From Propioniciclava coleopterorum (lineage in GTDB: Bacteria > Actinomycetota > Actinomycetes > Propionibacteriales > Propionibacteriaceae), in the NCBI RefSeq assembly GCF_011393335.1, contig NZ_CP049865.1, positions 806,001-870,000 of the forward strand: 64,000 nt of DNA, read 5' to 3'. The notes beneath the pieces are model-generated. The model was not told where the DNA came from. It saw nothing but the letters and a program-made list of their open reading frames with translations, and did no database searches. Shown here one piece after another: positions 26,652 through 63,374 of this stretch; position 1 is the first letter of the stretch, and each line of letters opens with the position of its first letter. The position numbers and the translations under genes were made by a program.

Positions 26652-27518
26652 TCAGGCCAGCGCCCCCGCGGCGAACGTGTTGCACTGGTTGGGGTCACCG
26701 GTGTTGAACCCCTTGGCGAGCCACGTGCGGCGCATCTCGGAGGAGCCGTGCGTCCACTGGCTCGGGTCGACGCGGCCGGCCGACATCCGCTGGATGTGGT
26801 CGTCGCCCACGACCTCGGCGGCCTGCACCGACCGGTCGAGGTCGTCCTGCGTGACCTCGCTGATGATGCCGTTCGGGTCGCCCGCGGCGAAGCGCAGCCA
26901 GACGCCGGCGTAGCAGTCGGCCTGCAGTTCCAGGCGGACCTGCGGCGAGTTCGCGCCGGCCTGCTGGCCGCCGGACTGCACCTTGGCCATCTGCCCGGTG
27001 AGGTTCTGGATGTGGTGGCCGTACTCGTGCGCGATGACGTAGGCCTCGGCGGCGTCGCCGCCCTGGGCGCCGAGCTGCGGCATCTGCGTCGCGAAGAAGG
27101 ACTTGTCCAGGTAGACGAGGTGGTCCGCCGGGCAGTAGAACGGGCCGACGTCGGCGGTCGCCTGGCCGCAACCGGTGCTGATGACGCCGTCGAACGTCAC
27201 GGTCTTGGTCATCTCGTAGCCGGGCAGCGCCTGCTGCCAGTACGACTGGATCGAGTTGGTGTAGGCGACGTAGCGGCACTCCGGGTTCGCCTGGATGTCG
27301 GCGCCGGTGCGGCAGTTGGCGTACTCCGAGCTGGTGGTCGCCCCGCCGGCGGGTGCCTGGGCACCGCCGAGCAGCGCGCCGGGGTCGAAGCCGAACAGCA
27401 TGGCGAGGATGATGACGAGGATGCTGGCGCCGCCGCCGACCGCGATCGCGCCACCGCGCCCTCCCCCGCCACCACCCATCTGAGACGGATCGAGTTGAGC
27501 CCCCGAGTTGTACTGCAC
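26652..27518 (-). CDS. neutral zinc metallopeptidase (YpfJ family)
   Basis: 288 residues. A short N-terminal tail with a glycine run (GGGGGGRGG) precedes one transmembrane helix (ASILVIILAMLFGF), and an extracytoplasmic domain follows. The HEYGHH zinc site starts at about residue 164, with a likely third ligand in LELQADCYAGVW. The family is known as putative neutral zinc metallopeptidase, and its substrates are unknown. GTG 27518 was chosen because AGGAAGG lies 8 nt upstream. A longer GTG start at 27539 adds only seven residues. Confidence 0.88.
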   Translation of the reverse strand: MQYNSGAQLDPSQMGGGGGGRGGAIAVGGGASILVIILAMLFGFDPGALLGGAQAPAGGATTSSEYANCRTGADIQANPECRYVAYTNSIQSYWQQALPGYEMTKTVTFDGVISTGCGQATADVGPFYCPADHLVYLDKSFFATQMPQLGAQGGDAAEAYVIAHEYGHHIQNLTGQMAKVQSGGQQAGANSPQVRLELQADCYAGVWLRFAAGDPNGIISEVTQDDLDRSVQAAEVVGDDHIQRMSAGRVDPSQWTHGSSEMRRTWLAKGFNTGDPNQCNTFAAGALA

Positions 27519-27652
27519 GGCACGCACCTTCCTGTCCACGGCGACGAGTCGGGATGAGCATATCCCCGCTCACCCACCAACGGTGTACCCAGTACGGGTC
27601 ACCGTGCGTGCGGCGGCTTGGTTTGGCCGGACGCGGCGGCCAAGATGGCAGG

Positions 27653-28366
27653 ATGCAGATCATCGGCGTGGAGGTACCGGGCGGCTCGCCCGTGCTGTCC
27701 TTCGCGCTGGGGCACGGCGACGATCCGTACCAGGTCGCCTGGGAGGGCGGGTACCGCGTCGTGCGGCCGCTCTCGGCGACCGGCACCGTGGAGGACCTCA
27801 CCGTCACCCTGCAGGTCTGCGAGCACGGCCGTCCGATCGTGCCGCGCGGCCCCCAGCGGATCCGCAGCACGCTGCGGGGCGACGAGCCCGTCCACGAGCC
27901 GGTCGTCCGGCAGCGGCTGGCCGCCTACGCGCTGGTGGTGTCCGAGCGGGGCCTGCTGGCCACCGAGTTCTCCTCCCGGACGGCGGTGCCCGGCATGTGG
28001 GGACTGCCCGGCGGCGGCATCGACCCCGGCGAGAACCCCGCCGCGACCGTGCAGCGGGAGGTCTTCGAGGAGACCGGCCAGACGATCGAGATCCTGCGCT
28101 TCCTGGACATGCAGTCCGACCACTGGATCGGCCATTCCCCCTCCGGCGTCATCGAGGACTTCCACGCCGTCCGCCTGATCTACGCCGCCCGCTGCGAGGC
28201 CCCGATCGACGCCATCGTGCACGACGTCGGCGGGACGACCGCGTCCAGCCGCTGGGTGCCGGCGTCCTCCCTGCGCGAGGTCTCCTGGATCAACGGCTCG
28301 CGCGCGCTGCTGGCCAAGCACGGCCAGCAACTGCTGCGGTCGCTGCACCACACCCGCGCGTCCTGA
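27653..28366 (+). CDS. NUDIX hydrolase
   Basis: 237 residues. The NUDIX box is complete: GGGIDPGENPAATVQ and REVFEETGQ fit G-x5-E-x7-R-E-x2-E-E-x-G near residues 122–144. The first 85 residues form an additional N-terminal region I do not recognise (VEVPGGSPVLSFALGHGDDP). The substrate is a nucleoside diphosphate derivative by family, otherwise unknown. The following 1-kb spacer holds the 20-bp repeat array. Confidence 0.87.
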   Translation: MQIIGVEVPGGSPVLSFALGHGDDPYQVAWEGGYRVVRPLSATGTVEDLTVTLQVCEHGRPIVPRGPQRIRSTLRGDEPVHEPVVRQRLAAYALVVSERGLLATEFSSRTAVPGMWGLPGGGIDPGENPAATVQREVFEETGQTIEILRFLDMQSDHWIGHSPSGVIEDFHAVRLIYAARCEAPIDAIVHDVGGTTASSRWVPASSLREVSWINGSRALLAKHGQQLLRSLHHTRAS

Positions 28367-28424
28367 CGCCGCGCGCGCTCGCGGGCTCTGTGCCGCTCGG
28401 CTCCGGCCGCCCCTTCGGCCCAGT

Positions 28425-28739
28425 CGCCCCCTTTAGCGTCAGTCGCCCCCGTTGCAGCGGGGGCGTCTGATCCGAACGGGGGCTACTCGTCCGAAGCGGG
28501 GCGATTCGTCGCAAGCGGGGGCCGCTCGTCACAAACGGGGTCCGCTCGTCGCAAACGGGGGCCGCTCGCCGCAAACGGGGCGCGACTCGTCCCAAGCGGG
28601 GCTGCTCGTCGCAGACGGGGCCGCTCGTCGCAAGCGCGGGCGACTCGTCCCAAGCGCGGGCTGCTCGTCGCAGACTGGGGCCAACTCGTCACAACGGGGC
28701 GACTCCTCCCGACCGGGGGCGGCTCGCCCTCAACCGTCG
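28425..28739. repeat. repeat module 1: hairpin header plus about 12 20-bp units
   Basis: The header begins CGCCCCCTTTAGCG (28425–28438). A hairpin follows: TCAG, T, CGCCCCCG, loop TTGCAG, CGGGGGCG, T, CTGA (28439–28470). From about 28488 come roughly 12 units near the consensus TCGTCSCAAACGGGGGCSRC, 18–21 bp each. This module is degenerate, and the last unit dissolves into unrelated sequence around 28730. Confidence 0.85.
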
Positions 28740-28755
28740 CCTCCGCTGGCCCAGA

Positions 28756-28950
28756 CGCCCCCTCTTGCGTCAGTTGCCCCCGTTGCAGCGCGGGCGTCTG
28801 ACCCGAACGGGGGCTATTCCCTCCAAAAGGGGGCAACACGTCCCAAGCGCGGGCCGCTCGTCGCACACGGGGGCCGACTGTCCCAACAGGGGGCGACTCG
28901 TCGCAGACGGGGGCGGCCCGTCGTAGAAGGGGGCCCCGACCCTCCGGTGT
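28756..28950. repeat. repeat module 2: hairpin header plus about 6 units
   Basis: The header CGCCCCCTCTTGCG (28756–28769) and hairpin (28770–28801, loop TTGCAG, one arm mismatch) are followed by about six divergent units of 19–23 bp. It is the most decayed of the three modules. Confidence 0.8.
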
Positions 28951-28968
28951 CGCCCCCTGCCCCCCAGT

Positions 28969-29272
28969 CGCCCCCTCTTGCGTCAGTTGCCCCCGCTGCA
29001 ACGGGGGCGTCTGACCCGAACGGGGGCTACTCGTTCCAAAAGGGGGCGACATGTCCCAAGCGAGGGCGGCTCGTCGCAAACGGGGGCCGCTCGTCCCAAA
29101 CGGGGGCCGCTCGTCCCAAACCGGGGCGGCTCGTCCCAAACGGGGGCCGCTCGTCCCAAACCGAGGCGGCTCGTCCCAAACGGGGGCCGCTCGTCCCAAA
29201 CGGGGGCCGCTCGTCCCAAACCGGGGCGGCTCGTCGCAAACGGGGCCGCTCGTCCCAGAAGGGGGCGACACC
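28969..29272. repeat. repeat module 3: hairpin header plus about 12 near-identical units
   Basis: The header CGCCCCCTCTTGCG (28969–28982) and hairpin (28983–29014, loop CTGCAA) are followed by about 12 units. Eight consecutive ones (29071–29230) are exactly 20 bp and differ at only one to four positions. Alternating ends CCGC and CGGC give a partial 40-bp superperiod. The low divergence suggests recent expansion by slippage or unequal exchange. All frames are open because the unit lacks stop codons, but nothing suggests translation. Confidence 0.9.
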
Positions 29273-29336
29273 GTCGTGGATGGCCACGGGGTGGCGGACG
29301 CGGGCGGATGGGGAGGGGACGCGCCCGGGATGCACG

Positions 29337-29367
29337 AAGCCCCGCCCGGATGGTCCGGGCGGGGCTT
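29337..29367 (-). terminator. terminator of the Bax inhibitor-1 homologue gene
   Basis: Perfect 14-bp arms (29337–29350 and 29354–29367) with a 3-nt loop, just beyond the minus-strand stop at 29382. It ends with a short T-pair on the minus strand. Confidence 0.85.
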
Positions 29368-29381
29368 GTGAGCGATGGGGG

Positions 29382-30227
29382 CTAGTTGCGGAAGTACGAC
29401 ATGATGCGCAGGAGTTCGGTGTACAGCCACACCATGGTGACCGTCAGGCCGAACGCGGCGCGCCACGACTCGGACGCGGGCAGCCGGTTGCGGACGCCCT
29501 GCTCGATGTAGTCGAAGTCCATGATCAGGTTCGCGATGGCCAGGCCGATCGCGAGCAGCGAGACGCCGACGAGCAGCAGGGTGGGCCCGCCGCCGATGGA
29601 GCGGACGCCCAGATCGATGCCGAAGAACGCGAAGCCGAGGTTGACCAGCACCAGGCCCAGGAACGCGAACGTGCCGAGCGTGACGATCTTGCGGAACTTG
29701 TTGGTCACCTTGATGTTGAAGAACCGGTACGCGAACAGCGTGACGCCGGCCGCGATGAAGGTCCCCAGCACCGCCTGCAGCACGAGGCCGGCGTCGAACA
29801 TCGAGGCGAACAGCAGCGTGAACGCGCCGATGAAGACGCCCTCGATCACCGAGTACAGCAGCACGAACGCCGGGTTGACGACGCGCCGCAGCGACACGAG
29901 CAGCACCGACACGAAGCCGACGATGCCGCTGACCAGGAGCGTCGGGTAGAGCAGGCCGATCGGCAGGAACATGAAGGTCACCGCGGCAGCGACGATGAGC
30001 ACGCCCATCGTGATCGCGCTCTTGGTGATCACGTCGTCGATGGTCATGACGCCGCCGGCGGGGGTCGGCTGGCCGTAGCCCGGCTGCTGGTAGGTCGGCT
30101 GCCCGTACGGATCCTGCCCGTAGGGCTGGCCGAACTGGTCCTGGCCGTAGCCGGCCGGCGCCTGGTAGGACGCGGGTGCGGAGTTGAACGACTCCGACCG
30201 CGTGAAGACAGGGTTGGTACTCCGCAT
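29382..30227 (-). CDS. Bax inhibitor-1/YccA family membrane protein
   Basis: 281 residues. A Gln/Tyr/Gly/Pro-rich cytoplasmic tail (about residues 18–58, with repeated YGQ and QPYGQ) precedes seven hydrophobic helices. LIMDFDYIEQGV near residue 240 and the terminal SWRAAFGLTVTMVWLYTELLRIM match the actinobacterial Bax1-I family. Characterised relatives act as pH-sensitive Ca2+ leak channels or modulate membrane proteases. An AAAGG site precedes the ATG. Confidence 0.9.
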   Translation of the reverse strand: MRSTNPVFTRSESFNSAPASYQAPAGYGQDQFGQPYGQDPYGQPTYQQPGYGQPTPAGGVMTIDDVITKSAITMGVLIVAAAVTFMFLPIGLLYPTLLVSGIVGFVSVLLVSLRRVVNPAFVLLYSVIEGVFIGAFTLLFASMFDAGLVLQAVLGTFIAAGVTLFAYRFFNIKVTNKFRKIVTLGTFAFLGLVLVNLGFAFFGIDLGVRSIGGGPTLLLVGVSLLAIGLAIANLIMDFDYIEQGVRNRLPASESWRAAFGLTVTMVWLYTELLRIMSYFRN

Positions 30228-30304
30228 CAGGGGTGCCTTTCCATCGTGGTTACCTGCATCCTAGTCAACGCGACCACCGGATTCGATATTCCGGCACCCT
30301 GACG

Positions 30305-30378
30305 TACCCCCGACGGGAGTCGAACCCGCACTGTGGCGGGTTTAAGCCGCCTGCCTCTGCCGGTTGGGCTACGGGGGC
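30305..30378 (-). tRNA. tRNA with UAA anticodon (Leu by codon) but a short variable loop
   Basis: 74 nt including discriminator A73. Acceptor GCCCCCG pairs with CGGGGGT, leaving a G1·U72 wobble. The anticodon stem is GGCGG/CCGCC with loop CTTAAAC, so the anticodon is UAA, and the T arm is GCGGG-TTCGACT-CCCGT. The variable loop is only ACAGT. Canonical bacterial tRNA-Leu is class II with a long variable arm, so this class I shape is odd. CCA is not encoded. Confidence 0.8.
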
Positions 30379-30398
30379 CGGCGCCCAGCAGTCTAGGG

Positions 30399-30415
30399 CG
30401 GGTCCGGGCGACCCG
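30399..30415 (-). terminator. small hairpin between ppx and the tRNA gene
   Basis: 6-bp arms (30399–30404 and 30410–30415) with a 5-nt loop, just beyond the ppx stop. It is short and may be a terminator or a processing signal ahead of the tRNA. Confidence 0.3.
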
Positions 30416-30422
30416 AGCCGCC

Positions 30423-31340
30423 TCAGCTCAGCAGGCCCGCGACCAGCCCGTCCAGGATGTCGGCCTCGCTGACGGTCAGGTCCGCCCCGACCCGCTCGCC
30501 GACCCGCTGGACGATGAGCGTCCCGGCACAGATGACGTCCGCGCGCCCCGGGACCATCGTGGGGATCTCCAGGACGCGCGCGACCGGCTCGGTGAGGAGC
30601 CGGTGCGAGAGCGCCACGAGCTCCGCGTGCGTGATCGTGGCCCCGTGGACGCGGGCGCGGTCGTAGGCGTCCAGCCGCAGGTTGATCGCGGCCAGCGAGG
30701 TCGCCGTGCCGCCGACCCCGAACCAGGTGCGGGCGGCGGCCAGGTCGACGCCGCACCCGTCCAGCAGTCCGTCGATGAACGCCGTGGCGGCCTCGACCTC
30801 CGCCGGGGTCGGCGGGTCGGAATGCAGGAAGCGCTCGCGGATCCGCACCGATCCCATGTCGAGCGACACCCCGGACACGTCGCCGTCGGAGCGGCCCAGC
30901 ACCAGCTCGGTCGAGCCCCCGCCGACGTCCATGACGAGCGCCGGCAGGTCGACCGGGCCTGCGCTGCGCGCCGCGGCGAGCGCGCCGCCGAACGACAGCG
31001 CCGCCTCCTCCTCGCCGGGGATGATCTCGGGACGGACGCCGAGCCGCGCCTCGACCCCGTCGTAGAACGCCTGGCGGTTCCCGGCGTCCCGGGCCGCGGA
31101 TGTCGCCGCGAACCGGACGCGCTCCACCCCGAGTTCCTTCAGCACCGCCGCGTACTCGTCGCAGGCGGCCAGGGTGCGCGCCAAGGCGTCCGGGTGGAAC
31201 TCCCCCGTCGCGTCGACGCCCTGCCCGAGCCGGGTGATGAGGAGGCGTCGGTCGAGTTCGCGTGGCCCCTGCGGGGTGGCCTCGCTGACCAGCAGCCGGA
31301 TCGAGTTGGTGCCGCAGTCCACGGCCGCGACGCGCGTCAT
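30423..31340 (-). CDS. ppx: Ppx/GppA-family exopolyphosphatase
   Basis: 305 residues of the ASKHA phosphatase fold. RVAAVDCGTNSIRLLV is the N-terminal phosphate-1 motif, RFAATSAARDAGNRQAFYDGV follows, and GEEEAALSFGGAL and LVMDVGGGSTELVLG supply the catalytic Glu and phosphate-2 loop. The short form without the C-terminal HD domain is typical of actinobacteria and acts on polyphosphate or (p)ppGpp. ATG 31340 overlaps the DUF501 stop (ATGA). Confidence 0.92.
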   Translation of the reverse strand: MTRVAAVDCGTNSIRLLVSEATPQGPRELDRRLLITRLGQGVDATGEFHPDALARTLAACDEYAAVLKELGVERVRFAATSAARDAGNRQAFYDGVEARLGVRPEIIPGEEEAALSFGGALAAARSAGPVDLPALVMDVGGGSTELVLGRSDGDVSGVSLDMGSVRIRERFLHSDPPTPAEVEAATAFIDGLLDGCGVDLAAARTWFGVGGTATSLAAINLRLDAYDRARVHGATITHAELVALSHRLLTEPVARVLEIPTMVPGRADVICAGTLIVQRVGERVGADLTVSEADILDGLVAGLLS

Positions 31341-62353: not shown

Positions 62354-63374
62354 CCGCGCGGCGGGCCGAGCACCCGGACGAGCGCTGCCCCGGCGAGCCC
62401 GACGCCCACCGCCACGGCGAGCGGGCCCCACTGCGGCTGCGCGATCCAGAACGCCCACGCCTCCCGCGCGAACGCGAGCATCCGCGTGGGGCTCCCCATG
62501 ACCAGGCGCGTGCCCAGCGTGGAGGTGATGACGCCGGCGACCGCCGGCACCAACCACAGCGCCGCCAGCGCCCCGACCCAGCCGATCAGTCGGCGCCACG
62601 GCGGCACCGTGCAGCGCGCCAGCGCCACCCCGACGAACAGGCCCGGCAGCCACTCCCGCAGCATCGCGGGCAGCGGGTCGGACGCCGGCGCCGGGACGAG
62701 CGCCGGCAGGAAGGACGCGACCCAGACCGCCAGGGGGACGGCGGCCACTCCCCACGCGACCGTCCGCTTCACGACGCAGGGGGCGGTCATCCACCACAGC
62801 AGCCCGGCCGACGCCGCGAAGGCCGCCACCGTCCCGCCCAACAGGCCCAGAAGTAGGGGGCGCCCCAACCCCGCGGAGTGGCGCCGATCCCCAGCCCGTC
62901 CCCCAGGACGGCGAACGACTGGGCCAGGACGACGGCCTGCACCGCGGCCAGCCCCGCCAGGGCGCGGCGGCGCGCGGTCGGCCCCGCGAGGGTCGAGACA
63001 CGCAGCGCCAGTGCCGCGGCCGCCGCGCCGGCGACGGCGATGCCGACGATCCGGTCCACCATGTACTGGCTCAGCGGCAGCAGCGACAACGGCATGGCCG
63101 CGGGCGGCTGCGCACCCACCCCCATGTTCTGCACGGGGAGCCGTGCGCCCTCGAGGAGGTGCGGCAGCAGGGCGAGCAGCCCGGCCGCCACGCCGATGAG
63201 CAGGCCCTGCCGCGGCATCGGGAGCGAAGTCCGTGGCGTCGGGCGCGGGGTCCGTTGCGTCGGGGGCGGCGTCCGTTGCGTCGGAGCCGGCGTGACCGGC
63301 GTCGGCGCGGGCGGGCGTGGCGGGGAGGGTGCGCGTCCGTCAGATGCGGGGGCGCGGGGCTCGGTCGGGGCCAT
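62335..63374 (-). CDS. multi-pass membrane protein of unknown function, broken by a one-base deletion
   Basis: Expected 346 residues. A hydrophilic Pro/Thr/Arg-rich N-terminus with TQRTP-like repeats (about 1–54) precedes about seven or eight helices (GLLIGVAAGLLALLPHLL, IVGIAVAGAAAAALAL, LLLGLLGGTVAAFAASAGLLWW, AVPLAVWVASFLPALV, WVGALAALWLVPAVAGVI). I recognise no family. The frame breaks at IGATPRGW. The continuation GRPLLLGLLGG is one base over, 1,040 nt is 3n−1, and the lost base lies in 62856–62866 (G5 or C4 run). Confidence 0.7.

Follow-up and report, generated by a model that had tools for sequence, protein, structure and literature searches.

Four-box palindromes at gene 3' ends in an actinobacterial family and their one-sided repeat arrays in Propioniciclava coleopterorum

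Described extragenic repeats and the array in the window

Among the intergenic repeats of bacteria, the pneumococcal BOX elements have the structure boxA-boxBn-boxC, and the neisserial dRS3 repeat is itself a palindrome and occurs in the NIME arrangement. The GTAG and CGTC super-families of REP sequences, the latter including dRS3 as CGTC-1, are described in the available parts of PMC3733652 as palindromic, extragenic and multi-copy, with some species-specific members, and as lying mostly in convergent or same-direction gaps near gene 3' ends; a CGTC-REP has a stem of 8-9 bp, a loop of 4-5 nt, an unpaired CGTC tag and a short CCA-like tail (same source). The BIMEs of E. coli interact with DNA gyrase and IHF (PMC2267715, available text), and their REPs alternate in orientation (PMC2817692, available text). 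The terms 'Actinobacteria' and 'Propionibacter' have no occurrence in the main text of PMC3733652, and Acidipropionibacterium thoenii is among the genomes analysed according to a table in the accessible part of the RepRanger paper (PMC12306157). Neither a four-box palindrome nor one-sided arrays are described in the available text of PMC3733652, PMC12306157, PMC3848588, PMC1590033, PMC2267715 or PMC2817692, and a literature search with subscription journals mostly outside its coverage found no description of the four-box family.

The window, i.e., the whole stretch of 64,000 nucleotides of the Propioniciclava coleopterorum chromosome analysed here, carries a non-coding array at 28425-29272. 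It is built of three modules, each a 68-bp imperfect palindrome (the head) followed by a run of roughly 20-bp units near CTCGTCSCAAACGGGGGCSR, of which there are 12, 6 and 12, respectively. A sequence-only reading of the same DNA had reported such an array, and its coordinates, modules and unit counts are borne out by the sequence and by a scan for unit matches. The element is like the BOX elements in having a head followed by a variable number of internal repeats in intergenic DNA, and unlike them in its unit size, its palindromic head and the lack of a tail module; with dRS3 it shares short repeats that form large intergenic clusters, although here the units are direct 20-bp repeats rather than palindromes. 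We place it, as a variant, among the REP-like extragenic palindromes in the broad sense: it is palindromic, multi-copy and almost only extragenic, with a preference for 3' ends, traits that the GTAG and CGTC REPs have in common with it (PMC3733652, available parts). Those REPs are 20-40 bp palindromes with a GTAG or CGTC tag, whereas the element here is a four-box, 68-bp double-repeat palindrome with one-sided direct arrays of 20-bp units, in a genome without Y1 transposase. The E. coli BIMEs are alike in forming clusters of palindromic units near 3' ends and in their proposed role in supercoiling; in contrast to their alternating REPs, the units here run head to tail in one direction.

The three modules lie on the plus strand. 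The head of module 1 (28421..28488; C-C boxes, centre, G-G boxes) has 26 of 34 possible pairs and aligns ungapped with heads of relatives, and its unit array (28486..28722) comprises 12 units of 18-21 bp with 72% mean pairwise identity. Module 2 has a head with 22 of 34 pairs (28752..28819) and 6 degenerate units (28819..28936; 64% mean pairwise identity), and module 3 a head with 25 of 34 pairs (28965..29032) and 12 units, 11 of them exactly 20 bp long (29030..29268; 84%). Each module has a strong hairpin, as previously noted, and the head of module 3 (28965-29034), folded as a DNA hairpin, reaches -20.2 kcal/mol (z -3.48). Module 3 had been called almost uniform; it is the most uniform of the three, but its units are not near-identical.

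The order of parts in a head is C-box, 19 bp, C-box, centre, G-box, 19 bp, G-box, with the boxes pointing outward, and in the array the G-box recurs every 20 bp past the G side of the head, so the array extends the repeat of the palindrome itself on one side. The sequence-only reading had divided each module into a conserved 14-bp lead, a hairpin and a run of units. The sequence of the lead is present, but it is the outer C-box of the single 68-bp palindrome; a run of units does follow the hairpin, but the 20-bp units begin only after a pair of G-boxes that belong to the head and are 19 bp apart. Head and array both belong to one palindromic element of a family, which that reading had missed.

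The site lies, as had been stated, between convergent genes. On its left, a NUDIX domain gene (27554..28366, plus strand; PF00293, E 1.5e-16) reads toward the array and stops at 28366, and on its right a Bax inhibitor-1-like gene (BaxI_1; 29382..30227, minus strand; PF12811, E 1.2e-72) reads toward it and stops at 29382. A codon-usage gene caller (a script, not a standard annotator) placed no gene between them, and the open reading frames across the array are mechanical only. Just 3' of the BaxI_1 stop there is, by eye, a GC-rich hairpin on the minus strand (29337..29366), which is likely the terminator of this gene itself; a similar hairpin was seen by eye past the BaxI_1 stop in all four of the congener gaps printed. 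With an 18-mer of the unit and up to 4 mismatches, all 27 plus-strand matches in the window fall within the array, and the opposite strand has 4; at 5 mismatches chance matches arise (22 of 54 outside the array). A separate 21-bp tandem repeat occupies 63210-63322 of the window.

Other known classes were compared with the element. It is not a CRISPR, as already recognised from the sequence, because the units are contiguous and leave no unique spacers (the spacing is exactly 20 in 447 of the 462 cases between 18 and 21 bp). The earlier statement that it is no REP of a recognised type holds as well: the units contain CTCGTC but show, by eye, no CGTC-REP stem and have no clear pairing signal, and the arms of the head are about 31 bp long; the GTAG-REP type was rejected on the Y1 results given below. 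No target-site duplication, a hallmark of insertion sequences and MITEs, was evident by eye in the printed flanks, no match was found in viral contig, phage and plasmid collections that would point to a phage or plasmid carrier, and a search of window 27000-31000 and eight loci against Rfam at the gathering score returned only tRNAs and a TPP riboswitch elsewhere.

Location and column conservation of the arrays across the chromosome

On the genome contig (3,671,901 bp), the unit at up to 3 mismatches has 406 matches against 19 for the reversed pattern, and BLAST with the array gave at least 162 matches spread round the chromosome (40 of the 71 first candidates scored). The 35 stretches that were fetched contain 389 of the 406 unit matches (383 in clusters of three or more), so the coverage is close to complete. 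In these stretches a weight matrix found 729 units above score 10, compared to 21 in the reversed sequence. Ten two-unit clusters were dropped from a total of 51, leaving 41 clusters of at least three units with 630 matrix matches over 16,695 bp (score above 8, both strands, some head boxes included); with 3 to 44 matches each, the clusters form a natural ladder for site dosage. The further copies that the sequence-only reading proposed to look for do exist: 40 of the 41 clusters fall within 34 intergenic regions (the remaining one, a cluster of three units at 984369-984450, overlaps with a called gene and does not count among the 34), and 4 of 618 unit midpoints lie inside called genes. Whole modules together with upstream sequence recur at several loci (e.g., 2708266, 2708550, 2708775). 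Clustering near the origin had been hinted at by the 100 best unit matches and was ruled out, the places lying all round the chromosome; with the origin assumed at base 1, the replication-strand distribution of the arrays (22 vs 12) showed no significant bias (p 0.12), and the GC skew of the stretches, which is weak, would set the switch points near 0 and 1.85 Mb.

The 34 array regions comprise 16 convergent, 14 same-direction and 4 divergent gaps, and the other junctions in the same stretches 33, 189 and 49, respectively. Convergent gaps are thus enriched (16/34 vs 33/271, p 5e-6), also when the comparison is made with other gaps of at least 60 bp (16/34 vs 16/152); divergent gaps show no difference (p 0.47; p 0.03 against gaps of at least 60 bp). 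Gaps that contain a gene 3' end (convergent and same-direction) account for 30 of the 34 regions, and in same-direction gaps 6 arrays have the orientation of the genes and 8 the opposite, i.e., no bias.

The unit shows strong position-specific conservation, which is evidence for constraint. For 37 arrays we took the majority base of each array, so that homogenisation is not counted, and compared it with the consensus; the number of arrays that differ is 6, 1, 6, 0, 0, 2, 12, 1, 7, 0, 13, 0, 1, 16, 0, 1, 0, 0, 0 and 15 for columns 1-20. Eight columns are thus invariant over 37 arrays, and departures in 12 to 16 arrays are seen at columns 7, 11, 14 and 20 (chi-square p 9e-22). The pattern is repeated by 329 interior units, which were picked by register from between scored ones (G15 98%, G17 100%, C18 99%; position 14 is G in 59% and C in 38%), and ancestral unit types could be a partial source of it. 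Base pairing does not account for it: three schemes of pairing inside units gave no clear excess. Because of the alternation at position 14, a run of four Gs is kept in just 57% of the interior units. Such a run is present in 25 of the 30 units of the window array, and 30 G-runs of at least four stand on the plus strand of 28425-29272. The sequence-only reading had placed a G4-G5 tract about every 20 bp on this strand and named a long-loop G-quadruplex tract as one possible role. The tract does not hold up as the conserved feature. A G-quadruplex, the loops of which would be long, is hardly credible, since 43% of the interior units lack the run, position 14 being C in many of them, and the dialects of other genomes (see below) spell the box GGGAG, GGTGC or GGCGC.

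A purely selfish or neutral origin, in which an unknown enzyme spreads the palindrome to the 3' ends where it does least harm and the arms grow by replication slippage with no host function, would agree with the species dialects and the patchy distribution reported below, with the occurrence of arrays in one species only among the 57 genomes searched, with the duplication of whole modules, and with the fact that adjacent units are most alike (4.0 mismatches, compared with 5.9 for units of the same locus and 6.8 for those of another locus). The strong position-specific conservation over 37 arrays, the strict 20-bp register and the preference for convergent gaps speak against it. We regard this explanation as somewhat unlikely and favour a function, given how the unit columns are conserved and how often the arrays lie in convergent gaps.

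The positions near stop codons are also compatible with RNA terminators. A bidirectional terminator or a 3'-end stabiliser of mRNA, acting as an RNA hairpin with the C-boxes as loading sites (e.g., for Rho) on the incoming transcript, would explain why the elements are often found in convergent gaps and within 100 bp of the 3' end of a gene, and the geometry would suit it, as a transcript from either flank meets C-type boxes first; the stable palindrome with compensatory changes (see below) points the same way. However, no T-run follows the printed heads (by eye), the BaxI_1 gene of the window has a hairpin of its own, array orientation is unrelated to gene direction in same-direction gaps, no Rfam family matched at the gathering score, and the units show neither a clear pairing signal nor an excess of folding (RNA of the module-3 array against shuffles, z -1.28 and +0.81). 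This makes an RNA-level role unlikely, and action as DNA is preferred because of the lack of an orientation preference, of a folding excess in module 3 and of T-runs.

Head palindromes in this genome and in relatives

Heads were found at 71 places in the 35 fetched stretches, 68 of them with the standard centre (reversed control: 0), and two modules (1316361, 1969290) have three C-boxes. In the heads of L070-L104, the 6-base centre reads TTCCTA/TTCCTG or its reverse complement TAGGAA/CAGGAA relative to the direction of the array, as if the inner hairpin had been flipped in some copies. Heads were centred by maximising pairing, and the rows of this genome are those with at least 24 of 34 pairs, one per locus; this makes the pairing percentages too high, both here and in the cross-genome alignment described below. 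Within this genome the signal is weak (standard pairs 80.9% vs 78.6% shuffled; covariation 0.132 vs 0.106), and two of five measures are not above the shuffles (pairs changed on both sides, 10 vs 10.5; further pair types, 28 vs 28.6).

A pattern scan for the palindrome revealed multiple copies in a member of the same genus (G006) and in two genomes of the genus g9 (G173 and G112), with the same four-box design in other spellings. The inner palindrome was found at 13 places of a genome-contig collection: 11 in three metagenome assemblies assigned to the family, one in Corynebacterium and one in Pseudonocardia; the last was discarded (16 of 34 pairs, and no model match in its genome). An ungapped alignment of 68 columns across genera was built from 23 heads (from this genome, G006, three g9 genomes plus G206, and Corynebacterium), in which each genome has its own dialect. 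Over 31 arm pairs, standard pairs fill 89.6% of the cells (70.8% shuffled; the observed value is subject to the bias mentioned above), 23 of the 31 pairs are changed on both sides (17.1 shuffled), and the covariation is 0.510 (0.174 shuffled), a value that none of 500 shuffles reached. A dimeric DNA site would explain this covariation no better than an RNA hairpin or a cruciform.

A covariance model (R1) was trained on heads of this genome (G000), G006, G173, G112, G206, G194 and a single Corynebacterium copy, so that their own matches follow from the training; G149, G151, G084, G189, G192 and G117 are outside the training set. At E <= 1e-4 it matched 35 of 197 genomes of the family (this one included; family placement of relatives is inferred) in 9 of 29 genera, with 26 candidates scored per genome and strict filters, so that the per-genome counts are lower bounds. 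Counted on both strands, there are 142 matches in G173 and 79, at roughly 40 places, in a genome record labelled Corynebacterium halotolerans strain 307_CHAL, from which 19 further copies chosen among model hits have 29 to 34 of 34 pairs. Two loci of this Corynebacterium genome (L253 and L256) show a clearly different dialect (CAGACCCACCCG...), perhaps a second sub-family. In a search of the phylum at least 1 of 396 genomes matched, namely this one, a weak negative given 12 scored candidates per genome and strict filters. The sequence-only reading would have been refuted if no related genome had any trace of unit or header. That is not the case: forms related to the header occur in several genera, although no relative showed the unit array.

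Arrays were seen in this genome only, among 57 genomes searched, so the relatives do not need them. With up to 2 mismatches allowed, unit matches number 0 to 2 in each of 12 congeners, as many as for the control, against 267 here; the congeners are mostly draft assemblies (G001 in 1 contig, G008 in 3, the others in 30 to 490), so arrays could be missing from some of them. A pattern of 1.5 units had no match in the genome-contig collection, from which this genome or very near ones may be left out. Heads were matched by the model in 5 of the 12 congeners (G001, G002, G006, G007, G012), and none in G011, the closest by BaxI_1 identity. The NUDIX/BaxI_1 site was found in 11 congener loci (no match in G010), in all of which the two gene matches end 110 to 334 bp apart, compared to 1,015 bp here; the four gaps printed contain no array. 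At this site G012 has, by eye, a head-like palindrome with 24 of 34 pairs. The same gap in G009 (L149, C43:1-3000, at 1016-1094) holds 3.6 copies of an unrelated 22-bp repeat, CAAGCCCTCGGCGGGTGGGAGG, with 96% matches.

Another conceivable origin is mobilisation by a RAYT (Y1) transposase, as for REPs of the GTAG type. Across the family Y1_Tnp is present in 10 of 35 head-bearing and 9 of 162 other genomes (p 3e-4), but within the genus g9 the association is not significant (9/14 vs 5/16, p 0.14). Y1_Tnp was not found in this genome (0 matches; the control matched 5 of 14 known genomes), nor in G006, G001, G112, G151 and G084, all of which bear heads, and about 1.5 kb on each side of four Y1 genes of relatives contained no 68-bp palindrome (0/4). 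We consider this origin highly improbable.

Because the elements of other genomes come from model or pattern hits, they share the design by selection; their location can be compared. Of 33 elements outside this genome, 15 lie in same-direction, 12 in convergent and 1 in divergent gaps and 5 overlap a gene call, which gives 27 in 3'-end gaps; in this set L154 duplicates L221, and L153 is also counted in the Corynebacterium set. L219 (G194:C427) has mirrored flanks with equal-length genes on both sides and is probably an artefact of assembly at a palindrome. Without L154 and L219 the numbers are 14, 11, 1 and 5 (n=31). Among 20 Corynebacterium elements, 16 are convergent, 3 same-direction and 1 divergent (19 in 3'-end gaps), and by junction 15 of the 19 that carry an element are convergent, compared with 1 of 27 other junctions of the same short loci, a baseline biased by the shortness of the stretches.

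A putative two-sided binding site

We read the element, at a probability of about 0.4, as a putative two-sided binding-site element (an insulator or roadblock) that acts at the DNA level at gene 3' ends. The boxes may be sites for a sequence-specific DNA-binding protein that would read about CGNGGGCG plus the CTCGTC spacer. Pointing outward and lying nearly on one helical face, they would meet RNA polymerase and the positive supercoils that arrive from either flanking gene, so that the element could serve as a two-sided roadblock or insulator; alternatively, it might recruit a topoisomerase, as E. coli BIMEs do gyrase. The 20-bp spacing does suggest a bound protein, as had been proposed, but it does not amount to two perfect helical turns: at 10.5 bp per turn each unit falls, by our own arithmetic, about 34 degrees short. 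The arrays, which may have expanded by tandem duplication, would be over-grown versions of the binding site of the head.

What began as one odd array is thus a family whose architecture is fixed while its spelling changes, with clear rules of location, seen in one actinobacterial family and one Corynebacterium genome, and it opens the question how high-GC bacteria hold converging genes apart. A wider proposal, which we regard as speculative and rather unlikely, is an actinobacterial punctuation system, in which a four-box palindrome that favours convergent ends would co-evolve in its spelling with a putative DNA-binding protein and act on both sides as a roadblock or supercoil sink; one species would have developed it into directional arrays of many sites, found at 34 places. 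A comparison of the dialects could reveal the partner protein.

Growth of the arms on a small scale is also seen elsewhere. Extra boxes within 150 bp of the core occur in 9 of 58 elements of other genomes (duplicates and L219 removed), 16 boxes in all compared with 2 in a backwards-read control, and 14 of the 16 point outward (the other two, at 100 and 157, point inward), so extension of the arms by further boxes takes place in other genera as well. The outward ones stand 20, 28-31, 38, 50, 56, 60-62, 81 and 134 bp away from the core box, and our impression is that the distances follow helical turns. Three Corynebacterium elements (L243, L244 and L246) have extra boxes 28-30 and 60-62 bp from their core boxes.
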